Notes under the pieces: generated by a model
What the model was told of the DNA's origin: nothing
Databases searched by the model: none
The model's input: only the letters and a program-made list of their open reading frames with translations
Translations under genes and position numbers: made by a program
Part shown: positions 8,663 to 20,927 of the stretch, piece after piece
Position numbering within the stretch: position 1 is the first letter of the stretch
Layout of the letters: every line of letters begins with the position of its first letter
Source of the DNA: Turneriella parva DSM 21527
GTDB taxonomy: Bacteria > Spirochaetota > Leptospiria > Turneriellales > Turneriellaceae
DNA: 64,000 bases
NCBI RefSeq assembly: GCF_000266885.1
Contig: NC_018020.1
Span: forward strand, 2,604,001-2,668,000
Reading direction: 5' to 3'

Positions 8663-8703
8663 CCAATGATCCATGCCTCCCTTTGGGAGGCATGGATCAT
8701 TGG
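8663..8703. repeat. 19-bp perfect inverted repeat, TTT loop
   Basis: Arms 8663-8681 and 8685-8703 are exact reverse complements around a 3-nt loop. The element includes the last codon and stop of the ArsR-fold gene and lies in the leader of etfB. On the minus strand it is followed by an A-rich, not U-rich, stretch, so a normal intrinsic terminator is not supported. Confidence 0.9.
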
Positions 8704-18535: not shown

Positions 18536-19630
18536 TCATAAAACTGTTAACTCCCCGTGTAGCGCGCCGGCCGCGTGTATTGCTTTGATCACGTCGATGA
18601 TCTCAGCAGAGGTCAGGCCCAGTTTGTTCAGGTTATCCACCAGTTCTTTGACGGTTGCGCCCTCTTTTAGTTCGGCATTCGCAGGCGATTTTTCTTCGCC
18701 GTAGGTATAGGCCTGTTTATTCGAGACTTCAACCTGCATGCCGTTATGTGTCACCATGACGCTCGAGATCGCCACGTTGCCCCCGGCGACTATCGTGCCG
18801 GTGCGCGTATCGAGCACCACGCGAGTGCGCTCGGGCACGTCGACCTTCACCTGCAGAATCTTACTCAGATAGTCGACATGGTCGCTCGCATAGGGAATAT
18901 TTAAGGTAATTGTACCGTCGTTCGCCAGCGCTGCGGTGTTGGCAAACTTCTTGTTAATCGCCGCAACGACATTGCGCGCCGTCATGAAGTCAAAGTTGTG
19001 CAGCGACAGCTTCGATGATTTGGTCTTTTTGGTATCGTCAACCAGTACCGTTGGCTGCGAAACCGCTTTTTCGATGATTGCCCCCGAAGGAATGTGAGCC
19101 GAATTGTGCCGCTCTTGCGTCAGACGGTCGTTAGGCGGTATGCGCTTGTTATAAACTGAAAAATTATAGAGTTGCAGGTTGTTATTCTCGGTAGGGCGGG
19201 GCAGCGGCGCCGAGATCGGGCCCTGTGCCACGGCATAAACCTGGCCATCTGCGCCCGTGAGCGCAGTCTGCAGCAGCATGCCACCATTGAGCGCGCGCGC
19301 GTCGCCGACTGATGACACCCAGACATCGACCGGGTCGCCGGGTCTGGCATGCACGGGAATATTCGCCGTCACCATAACCGCCGCGATGTTCTTCGCCTGC
19401 AGCGTTTTATCACCGAGGTCGATGCCGCGGTTGTAGAGGTTTTTACGCAGCGTTTCCATCGCGAGCTGCGAGCGCGAATCGCCGCTGCCATTGAGGCCGA
19501 TGACGACACCATAACCCGAGACCTGGTTCTCGCGGTGCCACGAAATGCGCGCGATGTCGCGGACTGTCAGGTTTAGCGCCGCCAGGCTAAAGGCAGACGA
19601 ACCAATGAGAATTGCGAATGCAATTCTCAT
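18536..19630 (-). CDS. flgI: flagellar P-ring protein FlgI
   Basis: A 364-residue FlgI, the periplasmic P-ring protein around the rod in the peptidoglycan layer. It matches the family in length and motifs: VRDIARISWHRENQVSGYGVVIGLNGSGDS near the N-terminus, GDPVDVWVSSVGDARALNGGMLL in the middle and the conserved ending ELKEGATVKELVDNLNKLGL. The signal peptide is MRIAFAILIGSSAFSLAAL. The start overlaps the flgH stop (ATGA), and a 17-bp perfect hairpin covers that junction, with GGGAGG just before it. Coupled translation is therefore likely. Confidence 0.96.
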   Translation of the reverse strand: MRIAFAILIGSSAFSLAALNLTVRDIARISWHRENQVSGYGVVIGLNGSGDSRSQLAMETLRKNLYNRGIDLGDKTLQAKNIAAVMVTANIPVHARPGDPVDVWVSSVGDARALNGGMLLQTALTGADGQVYAVAQGPISAPLPRPTENNNLQLYNFSVYNKRIPPNDRLTQERHNSAHIPSGAIIEKAVSQPTVLVDDTKKTKSSKLSLHNFDFMTARNVVAAINKKFANTAALANDGTITLNIPYASDHVDYLSKILQVKVDVPERTRVVLDTRTGTIVAGGNVAISSVMVTHNGMQVEVSNKQAYTYGEEKSPANAELKEGATVKELVDNLNKLGLTSAEIIDVIKAIHAAGALHGELTVL

Positions 19631-19636
19631 TGGTTC
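19599..19636. repeat. 17-bp perfect inverted repeat over flgH stop / flgI start
   Basis: Arms 19599-19615 and 19620-19636, loop GAAT. On the message the flgI AUG lies in the 5' arm, and the stem encodes the first ten residues of the FlgI signal peptide. The Shine-Dalgarno sequence lies just outside the stem. Confidence 0.92.
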
Positions 19637-20313
19637 ATGCCTCCCAGTATTTGCTTCATGTGCTCAATCAGCAGCTCTTTTCGCAGCTGGTCGCTGAACT
19701 CAGTCATTGTCGGTTTCGAGTTCGGGTCGGTGCCGGCGGGTGGCTTCAGGTTCAGCTTCTGGTCTTTCGGAAAAGGCGGTTCAGACTGCACATTCAGCGT
19801 CAGGTTGCCAATAAAACGCGATTCGATTGTACCCTGGCGAATACGGCGCGCGTCGACGATGCCGCTCAGCTGCACGCGCACCGGTTTGCCGTCGATGTTG
19901 AGCGACTTGGTTGCCTGCAAAGGAAAATTACCGTCGGCCTGGCGTGCGCCCAGAATGCCGGTAATCTGAAAGCGGTAGGTGTCGCGGTTTTTAGAATTAT
20001 TCAGCGAACTCTTGCTGTTCGATTTGCTCTGCTGCGAATTAGTCAGAAACGGAATATTCTTCGTGTCAGGCACGAGCTTCGTTTCAAACTTTTGCGAGCT
20101 ATTCCACTGGCCGTCGCTCACCAGCGTGAAACTTTCGTTCACTTCAATCGCAACGATCTCGCCCTCGCGTGGCGGTGCGACGTAGGGGTTTTGATCACGC
20201 CACAGGCTCTCCTGTGGCGTGATCGGCGCTGACGCGCCGACAATTAACAACAAAACAAGTTTTGCGGCTTCGCCGCAAAACTTGTTTTGTTGCGAGTTTT
20301 GGCGGCGATTCAT
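19627..20313 (-). CDS. flgH: flagellar L-ring protein FlgH
   Basis: A 228-residue FlgH, the outer-ring lipoprotein or periplasmic ring part of the basal body. The family landmark SLWRDQNPYVAPPREGEIV is at residues 36-54, followed by typical beta-rich segments and RRIRQGTIESRFIGNLTL. The N-terminus is odd: residues 8-41 are encoded by three successive perfect hairpins, and no lipobox Cys is where E. coli FlgH has one, though a Cys is at residue 13. The signal core AAKLVLLLIVGASA is still functional-looking. It overlaps flgA (ATGA) and flgI (ATGA), giving full coupling. Confidence 0.93.
   Translation of the reverse strand: MNRRQNSQQNKFCGEAAKLVLLLIVGASAPITPQESLWRDQNPYVAPPREGEIVAIEVNESFTLVSDGQWNSSQKFETKLVPDTKNIPFLTNSQQSKSNSKSSLNNSKNRDTYRFQITGILGARQADGNFPLQATKSLNIDGKPVRVQLSGIVDARRIRQGTIESRFIGNLTLNVQSEPPFPKDQKLNLKPPAGTDPNSKPTMTEFSDQLRKELLIEHMKQILGGMNQ
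20193..20224. repeat. 14-bp perfect inverted repeat inside flgH
   Basis: Arms 20193-20206 and 20211-20224, loop CTCT. It encodes residues 30-41. One arm encodes the conserved LWRD of FlgH and the other is its inverted copy. Confidence 0.92.
20223..20240. repeat. 7-bp inverted repeat inside flgH
   Basis: TCGGCGC / GCGCCGA around TGAC, between the two longer hairpins. It encodes V25-I31 of the FlgH signal region. Confidence 0.75.
20248..20292. repeat. 21-bp perfect inverted repeat inside flgH
   Basis: Arms 20248-20268 and 20272-20292, loop TTC. This is the longest perfect hairpin in the window. It encodes FlgH residues 8-22, including the start of the hydrophobic signal core. Confidence 0.93.
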
Positions 20314-20927
20314 TGTACCAGCTCCGCTGCTTCGCCGTTCACCAGGCGTGCGCGCAGGTTCTTGCGTGTGCCCGATATGCGAACGTCGATCGTTTCACCG
20401 GGAAAAGCATCCATAAGTATTACCGCGTCGCGCGCGATCTGTATGTGCGCGCTTTTCAAGAAAAGTTTCACCGTGCTGCCGCGGCGAATGCGCTGTGAAG
20501 GCTTCGGGGCGTCTGTAACCGGTGCATGCGCCAGCACTTCGCCGATGGGTATCGCGCCGCGGGTGATCGTAATCTGGCTGCCCGAAATTTTTTCGGGTAT
20601 CACACCTGCAGCCCACGCATGCAGTTCGATTTCTTTCGCGTTCAATATCGTGCGCTCGCCTTTAAGTTCAATGCGGCAGTAACGATTGAGTTTTTCAACC
20701 TCACGCGCAGCCATGCCCTGCAGTTGTACGAGGTCACCCAGGCAGACCGAAGCGTTGGGGCTAGTGAATACGGATTTCAGAGTTAATGTTGTTTTGCTCT
20801 CGGCGTGGGCGAAAGAAAGCGTCATGAATAAAAATATACCCTTAGAGACGCGACTACCTGCGGTGAGCGCAGCCGAACCGATCGCGTCTCTAAGGAATCT
20901 AGAGCGGTTATTTATCCATGTCGCCAA
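20310..20927 (-). CDS. flgA: flagellar P-ring assembly chaperone FlgA
   Basis: A 205-residue FlgA, the periplasmic chaperone for P-ring assembly. The SAF domain is visible in the second half: GAIPIGEVLAHAPVTDAPKPSQRIRRGSTVKLFL, ending with a family-like DAFPGETIDVRISGTRKNLRARLVNG. The hydrophobic segment GIFLFMTLSFAHA ends at a good signal cleavage site, with about 30 residues before it, part of which is encoded by a nested palindrome (20840-20895). An ATG at 20825 would leave too short a signal, so I keep 20927. It starts 17 bp after flgG and overlaps flgH by ATGA. Confidence 0.85.
   Translation of the reverse strand: MATWINNRSRFLRDAIGSAALTAGSRVSKGIFLFMTLSFAHAESKTTLTLKSVFTSPNASVCLGDLVQLQGMAAREVEKLNRYCRIELKGERTILNAKEIELHAWAAGVIPEKISGSQITITRGAIPIGEVLAHAPVTDAPKPSQRIRRGSTVKLFLKSAHIQIARDAVILMDAFPGETIDVRISGTRKNLRARLVNGEAAELVQ
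20840..20895. repeat. nested inverted repeat inside flgA signal region
   Basis: Outer arms 20840-20853 and 20882-20895 are 14 bp and perfect. Inside is CTGCG / CGCAG around GTGAG, within the core GGTGAGCGCAGCCGAACC that also occurs, slightly changed, at 18477-18493. It encodes residues 11-30 of FlgA. Confidence 0.88.

Follow-up and report, generated by a model that had tools for sequence, protein, structure and literature searches.

Perfect hairpins at the start of flgH in Turneriella parva: probable products of template switching at short inverted repeats

In yeast genes, homogenisation of the arms of an inverted repeat together with inversion of its spacer is the footprint of a template switch, including in one TTC/GAA case (Abraham and Hazkani-Covo 2021, PMC8604942). 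The hairpins that we describe here, from the bacterium Turneriella parva, resemble those events in their homogenised arms, in their short spacer inversions (2–5 nt in yeast, TTC/GAA among them) and in their location within protein-coding genes; they differ in having arms of 14–21 bp, a long rewritten or added stretch, a bacterial host and a position in signal-peptide codons. In rRNA, template switching inverts loops and creates hairpins, and the features shared with T. parva are stem extension, compensatory changes made in one event and inversion of a loop above an unchanged stem (PMC8794818); rRNA is under structural selection, whereas the T. parva cases lie in protein-coding and intergenic DNA. 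Quasipalindrome mutation in Escherichia coli (PMC7202029 and earlier genetics) likewise makes imperfect inverted repeats perfect during replication, but at reporter hot spots, while in T. parva long perfect hairpins persist throughout the genome. Perfect inverted repeats within protein-coding sequence also occur in Nematomorpha mitochondria, where they reach 284 bp (PMC6649704), as against 14–21 bp at bacterial N-termini here. REP and GTAG-tagged palindromes (PMC3733652) and Rickettsia palindromic elements are short palindromes of bacterial genomes too, but they form sequence families, whereas the T. parva arms are unique and appear to derive from local sequence.

Template switching at inverted repeats has precedents in reporter genes, in rRNA and in yeast strains. 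T. parva is a natural bacterial genome in which it seems to happen often enough to rewrite coding sequence, in which its direction can be read (from a conserved arm to an unconstrained one) and in which loop inversions are seen between sister species. It offers a testable system for how sequence is gained in signal peptides and in other segments under loose constraint, and for the repair functions that keep palindromes rare elsewhere.

We analysed a 64,000-nt stretch of the T. parva genome, called the window below. Genes were called with a simple script, and signal peptides were judged by eye. The features at and near the start of flgH are as follows, with arms named in flgH sense.

20298–20308, minus strand: incomplete third copy of the GCCGCAAAACT arm, shortly after the flgH start; pairs with 20270–20280 at 10 of 11 positions
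20272–20292, minus strand: hairpin 1, 5′ arm; codons 8–14, within an N-terminal extension absent from the outgroups; taken as the derived inverted copy
20269–20271, minus strand: hairpin 1, loop; GAA in flgH sense and TTC, its exact inversion, in the sister species (L034)
20248–20268, minus strand: hairpin 1, 3′ arm; codes AAKLVLL (codons 16–22), at the position of the outgroup signal-peptide core
20223–20240, minus strand: hairpin 2; 7 bp, loop 4 nt, arms 20223–20229 and 20234–20240; chance level
20211–20224, minus strand: hairpin 3, 5′ arm; ITPQ region, the putative overwritten arm
20193–20206, minus strand: hairpin 3, 3′ arm; codes conserved LWRD (codons 37–40), the putative source arm
19627–20313, minus strand: flgH, flagellar L-ring protein, 228 aa (open reading frame; Pfam FlgH, PF02107)
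19599–19636, minus strand: 17-bp perfect hairpin, loop 4 nt, spanning the flgH stop codon, the flgI start codon and the flgI signal peptide; of the same kind as the flgH hairpins
18536–19630, minus strand: flgI, flagellar P-ring protein (Pfam FlgI, PF02119, E = 2.9e-91)

The sequence-only reading had described three consecutive perfect hairpins over FlgH codons 8–41, with AAKLVLL coded by one arm of the first and LWRD by one arm of the last. All three were recovered exactly (21 bp with a 3-nt loop, 7 bp with a 4-nt loop and 14 bp with a 4-nt loop), and the codons of both arms agree. Only the 21- and 14-bp stems exceed chance; the 7-bp stem is ordinary, as the window contains 14 stems of exactly 7 bp with 3–4 nt loops. 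Counting perfect hairpins of at least 13 bp with loops of up to 10 nt, the window holds 8, compared to about 0.05 expected from an order-3 Markov model of its 64 kb. Besides those in flgH and at the flgI start, five more such hairpins are present. The Pfam FlgH match is confined to residues 34–182, so that the domain starts at the conserved arm of hairpin 3. The rest of the array, from hairpin 1 through hairpin 2 to the 5′ arm of hairpin 3, falls within the signal peptide or close to it. Neither hairpin 1 nor hairpin 3 combines the GC-rich stem, T run and location outside coding sequence of an intrinsic terminator: both are inside the flgH frame, and the sense sequence that follows them is TTAATTG and AAAACC, respectively.

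We compared these arms with flgH in relatives, whose assemblies are fragmentary. The sister species (genome G003, loci L034 and L005) is an independent metagenome assembly with 97% FlgH protein identity, and it keeps hairpins 1 and 3. Within hairpin 1, 41 of the 42 arm bases are kept, the single mismatch (K to Q) falling in the 3′ arm, and the loop between them is exactly inverted. A 9-bp perfect stem joins the third GCCGCAAAACT copy to the 5′ arm of hairpin 1 at L005 and L034. The outgroups (L035–L038, 70–80% protein identity) are without hairpin 1, and their proteins are shorter by the corresponding in-frame stretch of about 14 N-terminal residues; the alignment of this hairpin to them is uncertain, because signal peptides diverge fast. 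At hairpin 3 the outgroups pair at just 3–6 of 14 positions. Their bases match the LWRD arm at 10–12 of 14 positions and the partner 5′ arm at 7–9 of 14, and close relatives carry LWRD or IWRD at the conserved arm. Before the Q, where the outgroups have INA or VNA, T. parva has ITP. With the LWRD arm present in the outgroups and its partner different there, the paired state is the derived one, reached by overwriting of the arm under less constraint. The sequence-only reading had suggested that the copied arms come from real coding sequence, and the source arm of hairpin 3 is the conserved LWRD sequence.

The flgI-start hairpin is identical in L034 and pairs at 7 of 17 positions in L035. Its flgH-end/flgI-start arm is somewhat closer to L035 (12 of 17) than the other arm is (10 of 17). 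From these alignments, it seems that an inverted copy of the arm under stronger constraint replaced the less constrained one, both here and at hairpin 3. As a separate observation, the same palindrome would sequester the flgI start codon in the mRNA.

We consider it probable (roughly 0.8) that the hairpins arose when replication switched template at short inverted repeats, through quasi-palindrome correction, hairpin extension and spacer inversion. This reading draws on the perfect stems, their absence from the outgroups, the inverted loop and joint change of both arms at other loci. We infer that the mechanism acts in replication and that the changes are near neutral; the best reading is that template switching is tolerated where protein constraint is weak. 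A stalled nascent strand would fold back on itself or jump to the sister strand, copy a nearby stretch in inverted orientation and return. At hairpin 3, the ITPQ arm would have been copied from the conserved SLWRD arm, and the derived arm is indeed an inverted copy of the adjacent ancestral one. At hairpin 1, the copy was probably taken from the hydrophobic core and added as the in-frame extension of about 14 residues. Both hairpins would be older than the split from the sister species, and one of the two lineages would since have undergone another switch that flipped the 3-nt loop of hairpin 1, a spacer inversion with its arms kept.

The sequence-only reading had offered either such events or a functional mRNA structure that slows translation during export; the first half is supported by the unpaired outgroups, the derived partner arm, the added segment and the inverted loop, and the second is unlikely. 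A selected mRNA structure at the flgH start, slowing ribosomes or timing export or assembly and kept by purifying selection, is an unlikely alternative, although the 171-nt sense strand folds strongly (−90.9 kcal/mol; z = −9.6 compared to shuffles) and the sister species keeps the stems with a single arm substitution. Of about 30 flgH loci, just T. parva and L034/L005 have the stem; none of the remaining 5′ regions examined shows a stem of at least 9 bp with a loop of up to 8 nt. Furthermore, the hairpin 1 loop is inverted rather than conserved, and similar hairpins occur genome-wide at unrelated genes, mostly between them. Conservation of the arms was rejected as proof of selection because identity to L034 is a mosaic: at 18744–19640, stretches of 98–100% lie beside stretches of 80–85%, and hairpin-free neighbouring sequence is equally conserved in patches. 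The mosaic suggests homologous recombination between lineages. With neighbouring flgI patches 98–100% identical, the low divergence of the flgH arms may come partly from such recombination.

The position of the start codon also bears on hairpin 1. A codon-bias gene finder chose a TTG at 20253, downstream of the ATG, which would make hairpin 1 a noncoding leader or a terminator-like structure. We regard this as improbable. The ATG overlaps the flgA stop codon with GGAG about 8 nt upstream, the same overlap occurs in L034, and flgH in L036–L038 has its ATG at the flgA end. Moreover, the L034 frame stays open across the inverted loop, and a start at the TTG would leave a signal peptide without basic residues. 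From this context, we place the start of flgH at the ATG, as its probable position.

Rickettsia palindromic elements insert into coding sequence. A mobile palindromic element of that sort would account for hairpin 1 as an in-frame N-terminal extension, and T. parva does carry repeated loopless palindromes; even so, it is a very improbable source, since hairpin 3 has one native, conserved coding arm and the hairpins with 3–4 nt loops are mostly unrelated in sequence. A search of the whole genome with the 141-nt region returned self matches only, which speaks against an RPE, REP or MITE present in many copies. Foldback chimeras are known in amplified DNA, but an assembly or amplification artefact from inverted chimeric reads has a negligible probability and is refuted by L034, an independent assembly that has the same palindromes with differences of its own; the T. 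parva genome is also a high-coverage finished assembly (PMC3746428).

Further analysis shows that the palindrome process is genome-wide and not particular to flgH. We scanned 864 kb, about a fifth of the T. parva genome (4,409,302 bases, two contigs), and found 69 perfect hairpins with stems of at least 13 bp, or about 80 per Mb. Extrapolated to the whole genome, this would give roughly 350 loci. Relatives with large samples had 6 in 320 kb (G006, 19 per Mb), 9 in 400 kb (G029, 22 per Mb) and 1 in 140 kb (G026, 7 per Mb), and the E. coli comparison gave 1 in 100 kb. Smaller samples, with 2–9 hairpins each, gave 57 (G003), 30 (G001), 34 (G002) and 128 (G005) per Mb. High density is not shared across the whole genus (G006 at 19 and G001 at 30 per Mb), so that a mechanism common to the genus is at most a possibility.

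Loops of 3 or 4 nt predominate in T. parva, and most hairpins with such loops are mutually unrelated in sequence, most arms being unique; a few palindromes, mainly loopless ones, form families. The hairpins are mostly intergenic, and many of them sit just where a gene ends, a place where a terminator would be expected. Intragenic cases lie in the signal-peptide regions of flgH, flgI, a LolA-like gene and an ankyrin gene. These amount to five unique short-loop hairpins (two in flgH, one in each of the others) and suggest enrichment in signal peptides, in a small sample with others at C-termini. Template switching would act across the T. parva genome, and its surviving products are seen chiefly in intergenic DNA, near the ends of genes and in signal peptides.

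A comparison of the two species shows how the hairpins change. We aligned the G003 orthologues of the T. parva hairpins and counted the pairs in 15 well-aligned cases: 207 are unchanged, 24 are compensatory and 38 have a one-sided change that loses the Watson-Crick pair. Independent change at the 13.7% divergence of the flanks would produce 1.7 compensatory pairs. This concerted change of both arms is a result for the 15 hairpins taken together; within flgH itself there is no compensatory pair, which weighs against the template-switch reading. In particular, the LolA-like signal-peptide hairpin has six compensatory pairs between the species, with both arms altered and still pairing. Three of the 12 aligned 3-nt loops are inverted, cleanly in flgH and with one adjacent substitution each at L110:15774 and at the following hairpin of the window.

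8663–8703, no strand assigned: 19-bp hairpin where a gene ends; the sister species differs by one compensatory pair and by a loop of AAA instead of TTT

The chance of three inverted loops among 12 is about 2e-10 under a simple model, in which, as for all P-values here, sites are assumed independent. Selection on terminators can also yield compensatory change in intergenic hairpins, but it does not predict inverted loops or the coding cases.

SbcCD cleaves DNA hairpins. In the whole T. parva genome, we found no match to SbcD and only a weak, partial match to SbcC, while the large subunit of ExoVII is present. Full SbcCD occurs in G029, and several further genomes of the class have an SbcD match that passes the cut-off. 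Loss of SbcCD as the sole cause of the hairpin density was rejected because G006 and G026 are also without good SbcCD matches and yet have low densities; the loss is at most permissive. A broader proposal is that palindrome formation during replication is hyperactive in the T. parva lineage, possibly in connection with the lack of SbcCD plus another factor, and that it continually rewrites signal peptides and gene boundaries, so that inverted template switching is a main source of new N-terminal coding sequence in this bacterium. We offer this tentatively, and judge it somewhat more likely to be wrong than right.

Other palindromes and repeats were observed. Loopless palindromes with GTTTAAAC or AAAATTTT centres occur at L040, L044, L047, L113 and L118, some of them in repeat families, and one such palindrome lies within a reading frame that, by eye, resembles dihydrodipicolinate reductase. 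At the 5′ end of flgA (20840–20895), a palindromic element has 14-bp perfect ends (CCTTAGAGACGCGA) and a 28-nt centre, with indels compared to the sister species. In the relative G004, a 33-bp tandem repeat of 7.5 copies (L036:3680–3924) lies between the flgH stop codon and the conserved part of flgI, and is another route by which the flgH/flgI junction has expanded.
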